From Anaerolineae bacterium (GTDB taxonomy: Bacteria > Chloroflexota > Anaerolineae > Aggregatilineales > Phototrophicaceae): a stretch of 64,000 bases of DNA. Location: positions 1 through 64,000 of the forward strand of contig JAUZRW010000023.1 of assembly GCA_030950085.1 (NCBI GenBank), written 5' to 3'. Position 1 is the stretch's first letter. Each line of letters opens with the position of its first letter. A program made the translations under genes and the position numbers. This document shows positions 1 through 54,818 of the stretch, in pieces. Under the pieces are notes generated by a model. It searched no databases. It saw nothing but the letters and a program-made list of their open reading frames with translations, and was not told where the DNA came from.

Positions 1-83
1 TCAATCTGCCCACGCATCTCCAAGATGATGTCAATCAGTTGTTCTTTATTCAGTTGTCTCAATTGCTCGCGTATCTCATTCAT
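1..83 (-). CDS. Possible transposase N-terminal fragment (runs off left edge)
   Basis: An open frame starts with ATG at 83 and runs off the left edge without a stop. It reads MNEIREQLRQLNKEQLID and then an IILEMRGQI-like helix. A short helical start of the type 'L(S/N)KEQLI-IIL...Q' is common at the N-terminus of IS66-like and related transposases, which is the only reason for the call. Only about 27 codons are visible, so the identity is weak. It points away from the AI-2E gene, which lies on the same strand upstream. Alternative: any small helical protein. Confidence 0.35.
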   Translation of the reverse strand, partial: MNEIREQLRQLNKEQLIDIILEMRGQI

Positions 84-155
84 GTTTCAGATTGTACCAT
101 CTTTTCTCAATTTCCGTTACAATACCCCTGAGCAGTTACGAGATAATTTAATTTT

Positions 156-181
156 TTCGGGAGATTCTCATATCTCCCGAA
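156..181. terminator. Hairpin downstream of the AI-2E gene
   Basis: A perfect 10-bp stem (TTCGGGAGAT / ATCTCCCGAA) encloses a 6-nt loop, 25-50 bases beyond the stop at 206. There is no T-run after it on the minus strand, so it is a transcript-end or processing hairpin rather than a textbook intrinsic terminator. Confidence 0.4.
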
Positions 182-45029: not shown

Positions 45030-46289
45030 ATGCGACGCTTCGCTTTTATGCTACTTGTACTCGGTCTTGTGCTACCCACCATAGCGCAGGTTGATTCAAC
45101 CGAAACGCCCAATCCCATAACGGCAACTTATACACCAACATTCACTCATACTGTCACAGCAACATTGACACCTACTACGACAGTAACGGCGACATCGACA
45201 AGCACCGCAACTGAAACCCCCTTGCCATCACCAACACCGGAAATGACAGATATCATTATCCCAAGTGATACAATGACTCCATCGCCCGAAGTGACCGCTA
45301 TTGTCGAAATCACTCCCGAAGTGACAGCCGAAGTCATCCCAAGTGATACAGCGACTCCATTGCCCGAAGTGACTGCTATTGTTGAAATCACAGCAGAGGT
45401 CACGGCGGAAAGTACCATAGAAATTGCACCATCGCCTGAAGTGACAATAGAAACAACAGTAGAAATAAGCGAAGAAATCCTGCCAGAAGTCACTCTTCTG
45501 CCTACCGAACCTGTCATAGAAGAAACCGAAGTCATTCTTCCAGAAGTCACGGTGGAAGTGACAGAAATGGTTGAATCGACAGCCGAAGTGACCGTTGCAG
45601 TAGAGATGACTCCCGAAGTGACAGCGATTGTTGAGATAACACCCGAAGTCACTCCCGAAATGACAGCGATTGTCGAAGTCACAGAAGAAATAGTTAGCCT
45701 ATTAACAGCAACGCCGGGTGGGGTAGCATTACGCTTTGTTCAGGGGATTGCGACCTACCAGAATCGTCCGATTGCGTCGGGTATCACTGTGATGATATGG
45801 TCACAAGATGATGTGCTATTGAGCGTTACAAATACCAATGATGGCGGTATCTATAGCCTTCCTGCGCCCTCAGACCAAGCATACTGGCTCGTTGCCGATA
45901 GCGAACGTCATCAGGAAATCCGAATTTGGATTGAGGTCGGTCAAACATTGCCACAAATTGTTTTAGCAGGGGGTGATTTAGATAATGATGGCTGCATCGG
46001 TCAAAGTGATTTGGATATCTTGATTCGTAATTATGACCAAGCAGAAACACTCACTACTGATATTAATGGGGATGGCATCACGAATCTATCTGATTTAGCC
46101 ATTTTGACAGGCAATTATCGAGATTGCGACACCGACAATACCTCAATTATCCACCAAACAGCGACACCCGAAGCTACAGCAGAAATAACGCCAGAAGTGA
46201 TACTTTCAGAAACACCCGAAGCAGAAATCACAGCACCGATAACGCCATTGCCTACTGTAGAAGTAACAGGAGATGTTACACAACCTTAA
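45030..46289 (+). CDS. Secreted Thr/Glu/Val-repeat protein with a C-terminal dockerin-like domain
   Basis: About 419 residues from ATG 45030. A signal peptide (RRFAFMLLVLGLVLPTIAQ) is followed by a Thr-rich segment and a long repetitive stalk of PEVTAIVEITPEVTAE-like units (about residues 70-230). A small carboxypeptidase-regulatory-like beta domain (VQGIATYQNRPIASGITVMIW, about 238-310) comes next. Then come two EF-hand-like dockerin repeats: DLDNDGCIGQSDLDILIRNY and DINGDGITNLSDLAILTGNY (about 318-365). After a Thr/Glu-rich tail there is no anchor. Dockerin repeats bind Ca and a cohesin; the cohesin protein at 48971 is the obvious partner. Function of the stalk is unknown. Confidence 0.75.
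   Translation: MRRFAFMLLVLGLVLPTIAQVDSTETPNPITATYTPTFTHTVTATLTPTTTVTATSTSTATETPLPSPTPEMTDIIIPSDTMTPSPEVTAIVEITPEVTAEVIPSDTATPLPEVTAIVEITAEVTAESTIEIAPSPEVTIETTVEISEEILPEVTLLPTEPVIEETEVILPEVTVEVTEMVESTAEVTVAVEMTPEVTAIVEITPEVTPEMTAIVEVTEEIVSLLTATPGGVALRFVQGIATYQNRPIASGITVMIWSQDDVLLSVTNTNDGGIYSLPAPSDQAYWLVADSERHQEIRIWIEVGQTLPQIVLAGGDLDNDGCIGQSDLDILIRNYDQAETLTTDINGDGITNLSDLAILTGNYRDCDTDNTSIIHQTATPEATAEITPEVILSETPEAEITAPITPLPTVEVTGDVTQP
45258..45391 (+). repeat. In-gene direct repeat encoding stalk units
   Basis: Two 56-bp copies (45258-45313 and 45336-45391), starting ATCCCAAGTGATACA, lie 78 bp apart. They are nearly identical at DNA level, indicating recent unit duplication. Confidence 0.75.
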
Positions 46290-46364
46290 GAGTATTTTAC
46301 ATTTTTATTGATACCGTGTATGCTATTAACTATAGACAAATCATAAATCCGAGGGGGTTTATAC

Positions 46365-48611
46365 ATGAGATTATCGTTCACAAAACATGCCGGGATATTG
46401 GGAACGCTCATATTCTTCTTGTTGCTCGTGATGCAACCGGTCTCCGCGCAAGTTGTTCCACTGATGTACTTATATTTCAACTGGACACCCGATGAACAAT
46501 TGACCAGTTTTGATGAAGATGGTTCGACAGTCATTGAACCGGATGAAGAACGTTTTGCCTCCGCGCAAATTTATATTGATGGCAATGTGCAATTTTGGGC
46601 AATTGATGTAATTTGTCGCGTCGGTTCTGGCTTGGAATTGGAAATGGTCGATATTACTTTCCCGCAAGGCACATGGGGCGTAGCAGGCACGGATTATCTC
46701 AGCACACCCGGCTCTGCAAACGTTGCCACACGCTACAATCAATCGCCCGGTGGGGGTACTTTAGCCTTTACGATTACCCGTGTGGGGGCTAATACAACGC
46801 CTGTCGGTGTCAACGGGGTCGATTATACCTTGCCGATAGCCAATGTACGCTTCAAAGTGCGTAATCGACTTGCTGATGCTTATGTGCCGACTGCCTGTAC
46901 ATACGTCCGCTTCCTCAACCGCGATGGACGTATCACACTCGCTGGGCGACAAGGGACATTCACCCAATTATTTGTGCGCGTGGGCTATACTTTACGCGGT
47001 ACAGCATTACGTCAGGGGTCAATCTACCATAGCAATATTCGCGTCACTTGTACCAATCTAGCGCGTGCGGCTATTGATGCGACTTATGCGGCTAATCCAC
47101 CGACAGCCTATACTTTAGTTAATGGGGCTTTCACTTTCGGCGGCGCTGTCTTGACGACGCAGGCTAATCATTTAAGGGATTTTGGTCTGTATGAGTGTGT
47201 CTATCGAAGCGATTGGAATCGCAATGGCATAGTCGATGGTACCGATGACCAATTCCTAGAATCAGTATCGTATATCAATTTGACAACCCCCAAATATCAA
47301 TTAATGCCTGTAACCGTTCGTTCCGGCGATTTTGATGCAAGCAATACGATTGCATTAGCAGATTTGAATATCATCACGGGCAGCTTTGGTAGTATAACAG
47401 CCGCAATCTTTGATGATGGCGATGCTAACGGTGATAGGCGCATCAATCAAAACGACCTCGCATTAGTCGCAGGTAATGTTGACCTATCCGATGCTGCGAA
47501 TCCATTATCGGCTGAACATACGCTGTATAGTCTCGGAACAGATTACAATGGTCTCTATCTCTTCCCCAACAGTCGCGTTTATATGGGAACGCCTGATTCT
47601 GGTGCGCTGACACGGCGCAATATTTATAGTGTCACCCGTGATTTCTGGGCAACACTGTCACCGGACGGGTCTGAATATGCTTATATTGCAGTCAATCGGA
47701 TTAACAATCAGCACGCGCTCTATATTGGTAACACCATTAATGGCATCGGAGTCCCATTCCGTTTACCGCTTCGCTTCCAATATCCAGAGGCTTTAGCGCC
47801 TTCGTGGTCGCCTGATGGAAGTTTAATCGCGTGGGTCTGCTCGACTAATACTGTGGGTGCCGCAGGCGAACCTCTGCAAGGGTATCAACTGAATCAAGGC
47901 GCTTTGTGCTATGCCAATCGTGGCGATTTGATAGGGAATACCACGACTATCGTTGATAACAGCATCGATTCTATCTTCCCACCTGCATGGTTGAGTTATC
48001 CGTACCAAAATGGGCAAGGATTCGCTATTATCTACTCCGATGGTGGGCAATTGAGATATTACGATTTGACCAGCAATAGCTCTGGTGTCGTCGCCGATTT
48101 GCCGGCGGGTTCTGATATGCCAGTCATTATCAATCACTGGTCAGGCGATAGCTACTTGTTCTTCCGCTATGACAATGGTGGAACGTATGAATTGCGAGTC
48201 GCCAAACTTGAATTGGCAAATACGTATATTGTCAATGCCGATGGTCTAACCTTTGCGGCTGCAACTCCCTTTGGTGCTGTCGGAACATCAGGTGCGCCGG
48301 ATGCTTTATATATGGTGGTTGATGGCACTGCCAATGTTGAATACTATGATGTGTCGCAATTCTTGGATATCATGCTCTATGCCGATAGAGCAGGTTACAA
48401 TACCACGAATGTCAATTTCGCTGTTGCCCCGAATATTGCGCCTGACATCTTGACCAATTTCTGGACAGCCGAGGCAAATCCGCATTTCCTTGATGGTAGT
48501 GTCGGTAATCCAACGCAAGATAGTTACTTCGGCACGGGCGAATGGGATGGTAATCCACTCACGCCGACCTTCCTCCATGCCCATCGTATTACTTTCGATT
48601 GGGTGCCATAG
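46365..48611 (+). CDS. Secreted protein with cohesin-like, dockerin-like and WD40/TolB-like parts
   Basis: 748 residues. Signal peptide (ILGTLIFFLLLVMQPVSAQ), then a cohesin-like sandwich (about 60-180: VQFWAIDVICRVGSGLELEMVDITFP and YTLPIANVRFKV). A regulatory-like beta domain (LRGTALRQGSIYHSNIRVTC) follows. A dockerin pair has GDFDASNTIALADLNIITGSF and GDANGDRRINQNDLALVAGNV (about 323-375). A beta-propeller-like half has ATLSPDGSEYAYIAV and PSWSPDGSLIAWVC. GGGGG upstream of ATG 46365 is the ribosome site. It could bind a cohesin by its dockerin and another partner by the propeller. Confidence 0.75.
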   Translation: MRLSFTKHAGILGTLIFFLLLVMQPVSAQVVPLMYLYFNWTPDEQLTSFDEDGSTVIEPDEERFASAQIYIDGNVQFWAIDVICRVGSGLELEMVDITFPQGTWGVAGTDYLSTPGSANVATRYNQSPGGGTLAFTITRVGANTTPVGVNGVDYTLPIANVRFKVRNRLADAYVPTACTYVRFLNRDGRITLAGRQGTFTQLFVRVGYTLRGTALRQGSIYHSNIRVTCTNLARAAIDATYAANPPTAYTLVNGAFTFGGAVLTTQANHLRDFGLYECVYRSDWNRNGIVDGTDDQFLESVSYINLTTPKYQLMPVTVRSGDFDASNTIALADLNIITGSFGSITAAIFDDGDANGDRRINQNDLALVAGNVDLSDAANPLSAEHTLYSLGTDYNGLYLFPNSRVYMGTPDSGALTRRNIYSVTRDFWATLSPDGSEYAYIAVNRINNQHALYIGNTINGIGVPFRLPLRFQYPEALAPSWSPDGSLIAWVCSTNTVGAAGEPLQGYQLNQGALCYANRGDLIGNTTTIVDNSIDSIFPPAWLSYPYQNGQGFAIIYSDGGQLRYYDLTSNSSGVVADLPAGSDMPVIINHWSGDSYLFFRYDNGGTYELRVAKLELANTYIVNADGLTFAAATPFGAVGTSGAPDALYMVVDGTANVEYYDVSQFLDIMLYADRAGYNTTNVNFAVAPNIAPDILTNFWTAEANPHFLDGSVGNPTQDSYFGTGEWDGNPLTPTFLHAHRITFDWVP

Positions 48612-48641
48612 GCAAATAGCTTGACCCTATAGATACAGATT

Positions 48642-48670
48642 AAGAGAGGGTATTTTGCCCTCTCTTTTCG
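48642..48670 (+). terminator. Intrinsic terminator after the dockerin genes
   Basis: AGAGAGGG - TATTTTG - CCCTCTCT followed by TTTTCG: a perfect 8-bp stem with a T-run. Confidence 0.8.
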
Positions 48671-48812
48671 TTTGAAGAATAAGATGATTTATCGCATAAT
48701 TAATCGGATAGTGTAGCGGCACATGACAATCTGCCAAACTAAAATACAGAGAGTCGAAAGCCAAATTCAGTGAATCGCAGATTCGAGCATTATTCTTGTT
48801 TTGGGTCACTCA

Positions 48813-48836
48813 CGGACGAGATATATCTCGTCCCTA
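48813..48836. repeat. Dispersed palindromic element (GGACGAGATA core)
   Basis: A perfect 20-bp palindrome with arm GGACGAGATA (48814-48833), followed by CTAC. Same GG...CCCTAC frame as the other elements, different arm sequence. Confidence 0.65.
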
Positions 48837-48856
48837 CAGGTCAAAAATGGTCTTTT

Positions 48857-48881
48857 GTAGGGACAGCATACATGCTGTCCG
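48857..48881. repeat. Dispersed palindromic element (GGACAGCAT core)
   Basis: GTAG followed by GGACAGCAT - AC - ATGCTGTCC: perfect 9-bp arms, 24 bp after the preceding element and in opposite orientation to it. Confidence 0.65.
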
Positions 48882-48970
48882 CAGTAAAAAATACAAAATG
48901 ATAATTTACCGAAACTGAGAATCAACAACTGATAACGAATAACTATTTTCTCAGAAAAGGAGAATTTATC

Positions 48971-49795
48971 ATGCGCTTAAGATGGCTTTGGATGATTTTC
49001 ATGCTGCTGATGCCTCTTACATCAATCGCACAAGATGACCCAGCAATCTTAGCCTTAAGAGCCGATACAACAGATTTACAGACAGGTGAATTTTATCCTG
49101 TGCGTATTGAAATTGATAACGTCAGCGACTTGTGGTCGGTCACGATGCAAATTGCTTATGACCCACAAATGCTCTATATCGTGGGGACAGATTCCGGCTC
49201 ACCAATTGAATTAGGCGATTTTCTGAGCGACGGCGGATTAATTATCCAGAACAGCGTGCGTGAGCAAGATGGTTTTGTCCGTTACACCCCATCGCGTATT
49301 GCCCCCGCTGACCCTGTGTCGGGTAATGGGGTCATTGGGACATTTCTTGTTTTCCCGTTACAAGCAGGGGAGGTCACGCTTTCGTTTTTGGATGCTGATA
49401 TGTCGCGCATCATCTTCAGCACCAATGAAGAGGGCTTGCGAACAGTCCAAGAATCGGTCTCGATTCCATTTGCTGTAACACAACTGACATTCACTATCAC
49501 AGGGGAGATAGTCACGCCACCGCCTGAAGCAACCGCGACACCTACGCCGAGTGTGACTCCGATAGCCCCTCAAAACACAGATGAGCCAACTTTCACACCA
49601 GAACCAACGCTAGTTGTTGTCACAGACTCAGCAACTATCAATACACCCACGCCTGTAGCAACACCCGATATATCTAGTGATACAGAATCTACAACATCGA
49701 CTTTGTTATATGTGGCAATTGGCGCAGTACTTGTGGCAGCATTAGGCTTAGTTATCGTGCTTATTGTTATGCGGCGCGGACGTTCAAAAGCATAA
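48971..49795 (+). CDS. Membrane-anchored cohesin-domain protein
   Basis: 274 residues: signal peptide (LWMIFMLLMPLTSIAQ), then one cohesin-type domain at about 27-170 (LRADTTDLQTGEFYPVRIEIDNVSDLWSVTMQIAYDPQMLYIVG, then NGVIGTFLVFPLQAGEVTLSFLDADMS). A Thr/Pro-rich stalk (about 185-240) leads to a C-terminal TM helix (LLYVAIGAVLVAALGLVIVLIVM) and a basic RRGRSKA tail. This is a surface receptor layout for dockerin proteins, fitting the two dockerin genes upstream. AGGAG precedes the ATG. Cohesin-dockerin pairs outside cellulosomes occur in many bacteria, and the ligand specificity here is not provable from sequence. Confidence 0.8.
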   Translation: MRLRWLWMIFMLLMPLTSIAQDDPAILALRADTTDLQTGEFYPVRIEIDNVSDLWSVTMQIAYDPQMLYIVGTDSGSPIELGDFLSDGGLIIQNSVREQDGFVRYTPSRIAPADPVSGNGVIGTFLVFPLQAGEVTLSFLDADMSRIIFSTNEEGLRTVQESVSIPFAVTQLTFTITGEIVTPPPEATATPTPSVTPIAPQNTDEPTFTPEPTLVVVTDSATINTPTPVATPDISSDTESTTSTLLYVAIGAVLVAALGLVIVLIVMRRGRSKA

Positions 49796-49807: not shown

Positions 49808-49833
49808 AAGGGCAGAAAATAGATTCTGCCCTT
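49808..49833 (+). terminator. Intrinsic terminator after the cohesin gene
   Basis: AAGGGCAGAA - AATAGA - TTCTGCCCTT: a perfect 10-bp stem followed by GATTTGT, just after the stop at 49795. Confidence 0.75.
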
Positions 49834-52946: not shown

Positions 52947-54758
52947 TTACGAGCTATCACCCACAAGATACCAGCCATCATCAAGCTGAATAGCACCCCC
53001 TAGCTCTAATCCAGCGACTAACAATGGGTCTTTAAGCAATTCTCGACACTGAGCATCACGCATGACAGCCCCATAGAACGCTTCTTTCTCAAAATAGAGT
53101 CGCTTATCATGCAAAATACGCCCCGCAAATATCTCCCGTTCGCGCTCAAACTGTGCCTCACGACGCGCACCTTTACCCGCAACATCCGTTACTTGTTTCA
53201 TATGCGCCTCAAACTGTACAACACTCATATTTACAGGCAGCCAACCCTCCTTCAAACGCCGCAGTAGCCCAAAATTACGCATCTTTCGCAGCGCATAATT
53301 CACCTGATTCACAGTAAGCCCCAGCGAACGTGCAATTTCCGACGGCATCATAGGCGATTCAAGCGTATTCATAAACTGATACACAAAGCTAACTGAATGA
53401 CCTAATGCCCCTCGCTCAGTGGTATCAGAATTGAAAAGAGACACACTAAATCTTAACCAGTGGGGGGATACCTTTACTGTATTCATATTCAACTCGACGA
53501 TTTTACCCATATCAATAACCTTATCTGTAAAACGCCATAAACAAGCACCACTTGTAGAATCTTGTCCGCACTTTTGAATGATGTCTGCATCTTTTAAGCG
53601 TTTTAATGCTTTACGAATAGTCATAACACCTAGTCGTGCTAAGACAGCAAGTTCACGAAGGCTTGCCCGAAAAACACCGTTTTCGTTTGCAGCTAGACGG
53701 CAACGTTCAACGAGAGCTAATGTTAAAGCTCTATCTGTAGCTAATGTTCGCCCTTGCCATTTATGATTTGTTGCCCAGAGAAGCGCATGATGCCAAAATG
53801 TATTGTTGCTCACAGGTTTTATGTCTGGGCGTGATGGGTTACGACTTTTACTGTAAGCACTAGCGATAGTATGTGCAATCTCAAAAGCTGGTAAACCACT
53901 GCCGAGTGCCACAAGCGTTAAGACTGATTCTGCTTCGCTTTGGCTATACCCGTTGCCATTCATATCACAAGCAGCTTTGAACAAGCGGTTATTTCGTGAA
54001 CCCTCAGTGATAGTATGACCAGACTCGATATATTCACGAGTAGCATTCGATAAGTTTGAGCAAGGCGATGTCACGCGATATGACCAATTACCTTTTGTAC
54101 TTTGCGCTGTTGTATTGTCTGTTTGTAGGCGTATTTTTTGGTCTGATGTATCACGCAGCCAGTTGATATCACGGGTATGAACGACTGGAATTTCTTTGCC
54201 TTCACGCAGCAACCATGTATAGGTAGCGCCAGTAGGGTGGATTGATGGGGGAGCAAGCACATAGCCACGTTGCCCCTTGATTTCCGCATCTGACATGATA
54301 CCTGATTTTATATTGTGGACTTCGCCGTTGGAGGCTCGTAAGTAGATATGACCGCCACGTGCTGTTTGAACAACCCATAGTGGGATTTGTCGTTCGTGTA
54401 GCTGGCTCATGTGATGTTGTAATGCAACGAGGCTTTCACAGTCTATAACGAATAAATTGCCGCTTGTGGCACCACACATCACGGCAAGATTGCATTGTCC
54501 AGCAAAGAGAACATCGAGTCCAAACTGTTGATTATCACGACTGAGCCGACCATATTGTAGACGTTTCCATGGATAGCCGCCTTTTTTGCCATGCGGCTGC
54601 GGTACAACGTTTAAACCCATGTCGTACAATTCATAAGCATTTGATTGGACTCTTGATTTAGCCGAAATCGCCTGAAAATTATAAATTGCTTGGGTTTTAC
54701 GAGCGGTTGGGGGTATCCCCGCTTGTAAAAATGAATGGTTATAAGGTATACTATTCAT
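52947..54758 (-). CDS. Archaeo-eukaryotic primase-polymerase (prim-pol) like replication protein
   Basis: 603 residues from ATG 54758 (a TTG at 54818 is also in frame). Prim-pol domain (about 45-185): the catalytic Asp-x-Glu in LFVIDCES, GGHIYLRA, and EIKGQRGYVLAPPSIHPTG-Y-W, as in bifunctional primase/polymerases of PF09250. A PriCT-like segment follows (EGSRNNRLFKAACDMNGNGYSQSEAE). Then come two winged-helix units (LRELAVLARLGVMTIRKALKRLKDADII and PSEIARSLGLTVNQVNYALRKMRNFGLL). No helicase Walker motif is present. Such proteins start plasmid or integrative-element replication. Context: a structured leader at 54846-54891 and no other replication gene, so this may be a remnant or a minimal initiator. 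Confidence 0.78.
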   Translation of the reverse strand: MNSIPYNHSFLQAGIPPTARKTQAIYNFQAISAKSRVQSNAYELYDMGLNVVPQPHGKKGGYPWKRLQYGRLSRDNQQFGLDVLFAGQCNLAVMCGATSGNLFVIDCESLVALQHHMSQLHERQIPLWVVQTARGGHIYLRASNGEVHNIKSGIMSDAEIKGQRGYVLAPPSIHPTGATYTWLLREGKEIPVVHTRDINWLRDTSDQKIRLQTDNTTAQSTKGNWSYRVTSPCSNLSNATREYIESGHTITEGSRNNRLFKAACDMNGNGYSQSEAESVLTLVALGSGLPAFEIAHTIASAYSKSRNPSRPDIKPVSNNTFWHHALLWATNHKWQGRTLATDRALTLALVERCRLAANENGVFRASLRELAVLARLGVMTIRKALKRLKDADIIQKCGQDSTSGACLWRFTDKVIDMGKIVELNMNTVKVSPHWLRFSVSLFNSDTTERGALGHSVSFVYQFMNTLESPMMPSEIARSLGLTVNQVNYALRKMRNFGLLRRLKEGWLPVNMSVVQFEAHMKQVTDVAGKGARREAQFEREREIFAGRILHDKRLYFEKEAFYGAVMRDAQCRELLKDPLLVAGLELGGAIQLDDGWYLVGDSS

Positions 54759-54818
54759 GATGTACAAGACCACATCAGATACTGATTGCAAGATTAAGTG
54801 TAAAAGTTTAATCCACAA

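Follow-up and report, generated by a model that had tools for sequence, protein, structure and literature searches.

Three neighbouring open reading frames of the forward strand, named here P1, P2 and P3, were analysed in the window, that is, the whole stretch of 64,000 nucleotides (contig C146 of a 5.09 Mb genome in 266 contigs, 97% complete, from an uncultured member of the Chloroflexota, order Aggregatilineales). All three were found exactly where the earlier note had placed them, and each begins with a signal peptide with an Ala-Gln-type site, as read from the sequence. The relatives of the locus that carry names are metagenome-assembled Anaerolineae, one of which is labelled Aggregatilineales. 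The features of the locus are as follows:

45030..46289, forward strand: P1, 419 aa, with signal peptide, stalk, X module, dockerin and short Thr/Pro tail
P1 residues about 22-225: Thr/Glu/Val/Pro stalk
P1 residues about 230-313: CnaB/CarboxypepD_reg-like X module
45972..46109 (P1 residues 315-363), forward strand: dockerin with two Ca loops, recognized by profile and Ca-loop ligands
46365..48611, forward strand: P2, 748 aa, with signal peptide, cohesin-like domain, X-like module, dockerin and propeller
46455..46979 (P2 residues about 31-205), forward strand: cohesin-like N-terminal domain, a putative cohesin with a moderate fold match
P2 residues about 206-315: X-like module
47322..47483 (P2 residues 321-374), forward strand: dockerin with a canonical second Ca loop and a partly degenerate first one
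P2 residues about 385-748: PD40/TolB-like propeller (PF07676)
48642..48666, forward strand: strong terminator-like hairpin of intrinsic type after P2, 11 pairs followed by a T-rich tail
48971..49795, forward strand: P3, 274 aa, with signal peptide, cohesin, Thr/Pro linker and C-terminal TM helix
P3 residues about 25-178, forward strand: type II-like cohesin, from profile and fold matches
P3 residues 183-240: Thr/Pro linker
P3 residues 242-272: C-terminal TM helix, with the basic tail RRGRSKA
49808..49833, forward strand: terminator-like hairpin after P3

Since the strong terminator-like hairpin splits P2 from P3, the sequence suggests that P3 is transcribed separately, and in this genome P1 and P2 probably form one transcription unit and P3 another. 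The gap between P2 and P3 also contains, at window positions 48814-48880, two palindromes (GGACGAGATATATCTCGTCC; TAGGGACAGCATACATGCTGTCC). The second has 40 copies in the genome at up to two mismatches, with none for the reversed control; it is a REP-like repeat family and partly accounts for the length of the gap. Elsewhere in the window, at 52947-54818, a Prim-Pol/PriCT_1 primase-like gene with winged-helix domains adjoins housekeeping genes and is possibly the trace of a mobile element.

The protein P3 is a genuine cohesin followed by a Thr/Pro linker and a C-terminal TM helix, as the earlier note had read it (a single cohesin with a Thr/Pro stalk and a membrane anchor). In the search with PF00963, proposed there as a check, P3 itself remains below the threshold (21.3 bits, cut-off 24.1), but homologues at the same gene position exceed it (26.4 bits in L020, 43.6 bits in L022). 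This is supported by a cohesin profile built only from the proteins of a divergent version of the three-gene set, called type B and described below, which finds P3 with 72 bits (E 1.2e-20; shuffled sequences at most 6 bits). The profile of P3 and its relatives, compared with the PDB, matched 5g5d, a type II "cellulosome anchoring protein cohesin" (E 1.6e-5). In the AlphaFold2 model the cohesin core has mostly pLDDT 80-98, and every one of the best 50 Foldseek matches of the model in the PDB is a cohesin, with type II at the top (E 3.5e-10), the best of them from Acetivibrio and Clostridium thermocellum. With a single cohesin, P3 should therefore hold one dockerin at a time. In NCBIfam, P2 and P3 gave weak matches only, and no family was found for P1.

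The presence of a dockerin in both P1 and P2, which the earlier note had recognized as paired repeats in two secreted proteins, was confirmed. Both comprise two tandem Ca-loop-helix repeats. The PF00404 search, also proposed as a check, succeeded only for relatives of the two dockerins; P1 and P2 themselves score 18.8 and 9.7 bits, below the threshold of 22.9. However, a profile made from type-B dockerins only, excluding all sequences of type A (the version found in the window), detects P1 with 25.4 bits (E 2.5e-6) and P2 with 22.1 bits (E 2.6e-5), the best shuffled control reaching 4.9 bits. At ligand positions 1, 3, 5, 9 and 12 the loops of P1 read D-D-D-G-D and D-N-D-N-D, the first keeping four of the five ligands and the second being fully canonical. 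Those of P2 read D-D-S-A-D and D-N-D-N-D, and the first loop reaches four of five when Ser at position 5 is counted, position 9 being without a ligand. Because this first loop is often disrupted by insertions among P2 relatives, P2 dockerins may bind a single calcium. Two cysteines at the ends of the P1 dockerin, Cys322 and Cys366 (window 45993-46127), are conserved in all 6 of 6 P1 proteins and could form a disulfide clasp.

Ahead of each dockerin lies a CnaB/CarboxypepD_reg-like module, which homologues show clearly (34.6 bits in L022) and the window proteins themselves weakly; CarboxypepD_reg/SdrD_B-like matches precede the dockerins of the trio proteins. A CnaB-like module before a dockerin is the X-dockerin arrangement of cellulosomal anchoring. 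These X-like modules, as well as the cohesin-like N-terminal domain of P2, were overlooked in the earlier note. The repetitive stalk of one dockerin protein is that of P1 (24% Thr, 17% Glu, 13% Val, 12% Pro), and a search for a DNA tandem repeat underlying it found none. The propeller-like half of the other belongs to P2, whose repeats reach 24.3 bits with PF07676 (cut-off 20.9). Two additional jelly-roll (MAM-like) domains lie towards the C-terminus of P1 in family f3 (L019:13103-15265, L061:1471-3984), and the stalk can thus carry extra modules.

The order P1-P2-P3 is the same in four genomes (G000, G005, G008 and G045, the last from another family), and in G094 it extends across two contigs with overlapping ends. 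Partial trios in G026, G067 and G025 are cut by contig ends, and only sets cut in this way miss a member. P2 occurs in 8 of the 154 genomes of the order, with P1 in 6 and type-A P3 in 6, all within those 8; the naive chance of one such containment, 1.7e-9, ignores shared descent and is hence too optimistic, which weakens the co-occurrence statistic. The flanking genes vary, and in five loci compared only P1-P3 match genes around the window trio. These data support the view that the trio is a conserved linked set in at least two families of Aggregatilineales, with non-conserved neighbours. The amylosucrase-like gene, which the earlier note had described as lying next to the system, does not belong to the set: no relative examined has such a gene beside the trio, and the link was rejected. 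The best NCBIfam model for this gene is trehalose synthase-like, far below the cut-off. On contig C47 of G094 (L059), a second P2 copy directly follows P3, a duplication of the adaptor/propeller gene.

The type-B trio consists of a large Coh-X-Doc protein, a cohesin-TM protein and a stalk-X-Doc protein, and is complete at 18 of 20 loci, the cohesin of L025 being counted from its open reading frame. Both types are present in G008 and G094, and most PF00404 matches in type-A genomes fall within trio loci. The large type-B partner (L022:6535-9039 and relatives) has an N-terminal domain of about 450 aa with many conserved His, Cys and Trp residues, for which no convincing match to a Pfam family was obtained.

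Sensitive profiles found exactly three dockerins in the genome of the window (P1, P2 and a protein of contig C14) and two cohesins over the threshold (P3 and the C14 protein), one per protein. No scaffoldin with several cohesins was detected genome-wide, nor any dockerin-bearing cellulase or hemicellulase. The C14 protein (G000, about 15.0-20.1 kb; L028:5018-10066) is a secreted protein of 1682 aa with subtilase, matrixin and CARDB parts, a dockerin and, after it, a cohesin. The description of the system as self-contained does not hold strictly, as the C14 protein has a dockerin and a cohesin of its own. As a conserved client of the trio, this protease was rejected, being private to this genome among 154 of the order. 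In the class as a whole, cohesin-like matches occur in 84 of 396 sampled Anaerolineae genomes, often several per genome, and the cassette thus represents a single branch of a broad and little-described repertoire. By contrast, a study of Anaerolineae genomes reported neither cohesins nor dockerins in those that it covered (PMC4877987).

That P1, P2 and P3 are partners, an assumption in the earlier note, is now well supported from the sequence side by the ordered recurrence of the linked set in Aggregatilineales and by a genome nearly without other cohesins and dockerins. It is proposed, with a probability of about 0.72, that the trio encodes a non-cellulosomal, calcium-dependent cohesin-dockerin surface tether. 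In this tether the C-terminal helix of P3 would sit in the cytoplasmic membrane, and the type II-like cohesin would be displayed outside on the Thr/Pro linker. By analogy with the X-dockerin of CipA, secreted P1 and P2 would be captured on the cell through their X-dockerin pairs in a calcium-dependent manner. The TolB-like propeller of P2 would be the likely working (ligand-binding) part, and P1 would contribute an extended stalk. The cohesin-like domain of P2 may accept a further dockerin, of P1 or of the Doc-Coh protease, to give a short chain. We infer the binding of the partners, its calcium dependence, who binds whom and the role of the propeller. Counted against the tether are the difference between P1 and P2 at dockerin positions 10-11, the degenerate first Ca loop of P2, the terminator between P2 and P3, and shared descent. 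The earlier idea of a device that holds two secreted proteins stands as far as the cohesin and the dockerins are real, but the single cohesin of P3 would demand two P3 copies or a chain.

The possibility of a chain depends on the N-terminal domain of P2, the presence of which means that P2 may be an adaptor and not mere cargo; from sequence and model, it is a candidate monovalent adaptor. One could envisage three links, with the P2 dockerin in P3 and the cohesin-like domain of P2 taking the P1 dockerin, in the order P3-P2-P1 from membrane to tip. This arrangement is a tentative alternative to the tether in which P3 holds both proteins. Foldseek matches the domain to cohesins (E about 1e-5, TM by target about 0.6), comparison of its profile with that of P3 gives 58-77%, and in the type-B counterpart of P2 the cohesin next to the X-dockerin is easier to recognize (PF00963 22.8 bits, 95% against P3). 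However, the overall pLDDT of the P2 model is only 48.9 (most of the N-terminal domain reaches 70-85, and the propeller part is too weak to read), CnaB pilins and sialidase sandwiches match the domain too, and P2 was not among the matches of the cohesin profile search in its own genome. The dockerins themselves were compared by the identity of their second repeats, by trio type and protein role. Identity is 0.52-0.53 between P1 and P2 within a type and 0.37-0.48 for the same role across types, as would be expected if P1 and P2 served cohesins of one kind. At recognition positions 10-11 of type A, P1 has small/hydrophobic-Ser and P2 has Glu/Gln/Lys, a difference that favours the chain in that the two dockerins may not share one cohesin; Ala14 and Asn19 are common to both. 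The dockerins of type B, whichever their role, mostly have Ile/Val-Arg at 10-11 and Gly at 17, recognition residues consistent with one common cohesin, which speaks against the chain. For type A, then, either P1 and P2 would both bind P3 via the common helix, or P1 would bind the cohesin-like domain of P2. A fuller version is unlikely, in which a very small chain of three proteins, free of cellulases, runs from a TM anchor through an adaptor (cohesin, X-dockerin and propeller) to a distal stalk and is inherited as a cassette of which there are two divergent and possibly insulated forms, G008 and G094 having both.

The cohesin- and dockerin-like domains might also be stable structural modules that do not bind each other, the trio being a group of surface proteins built from a common repertoire of domains. 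Such folds can serve in other roles, the window proteins fall under the Pfam cut-offs, and some Ca-loop ligands are lost. Nevertheless, a single cohesin and the dockerin proteins co-occur across genomes, the second Ca loops are intact and P3 comes nearest to the type II cohesins of anchoring proteins, which makes such an explanation improbable. Most doubtful is a role of P3 as an anchor mainly for enzymes encoded elsewhere, with P1 and P2 accessory: the C14 protease has a cohesin together with a dockerin whose Ca loops are good, and genus g13 has X-dockerins in other large proteins as well, but the C14 Doc-Coh segment has no relative in the 153 other genomes of the order (E 1e-6), whereas the trio is conserved, and its dockerin differs from those of P1 and P2 at the recognition positions.

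Among known systems, the proposed tether most resembles the anchoring of the CipA X-dockerin to type II cohesins of the SdbA, OlpB and ScaC type in Clostridium thermocellum and Acetivibrio cellulolyticus. There the X-dockerin of CipA is captured by surface-bound type II cohesins. Common to both are a type II-like cohesin on a surface-anchored protein and an Ig/CnaB-like module before the dockerin, and the group supplies the best PDB sequence and fold matches of P3. In contrast, the trio is not linked to a multi-cohesin primary scaffoldin or a cellulase, and P3 has a single cohesin and is anchored by a TM helix instead of SLH. In a scaffoldin scheme built for cellulosome-displaying bacteria, in which Chloroflexota are not mentioned, P3 (cohesin with C-terminal TM helix) fits the non-SLH-anchoring class, and P2, with its dockerin and single, putative cohesin, would fit the monovalent adaptors (PMC11557425). 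Non-cellulosomal cohesin and dockerin proteins of archaea likewise belong to hosts not thought to degrade cellulose (ANME, PMC9012536; the Archaeoglobus fulgidus cohesin 2xdh), and the ANME-type sets include proteins with both domains (PMC9012536); unlike them, the trio forms a conserved cassette of three genes that have a fixed order and defined roles. The amylosome of Ruminococcus bromii is also a cohesin-dockerin device outside cellulose degradation, but here no starch enzyme carries a dockerin, and conservation of the trio does not extend to the adjacent GH13-type gene. Assignment as an amylosome was rejected on defining features, as was assignment as a cellulosome, two of whose defining features (a multi-cohesin primary scaffoldin and dockerin-bearing cellulases or hemicellulases) are absent.

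Because related bacteria keep the trio together and show no trace of enzymes that digest cellulose, the set looks like a pared-down docking device of the cellulosome kind that serves some purpose other than degrading cellulose. Non-cellulosomal sets as such are known; the novelty lies in a conserved form of three genes in Chloroflexota, for which no describing paper was found in the mostly open-access literature covered. Cohesins and dockerins outside cellulosomes are widespread, and their partners can seldom be assigned. In this order the conserved set comprises hardly more than one cohesin and two dockerin proteins, so that three proteins suffice for a direct test of both the partner assignment and the non-cellulosomal role. 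The two divergent versions of the trio could also yield new orthogonal docking pairs.
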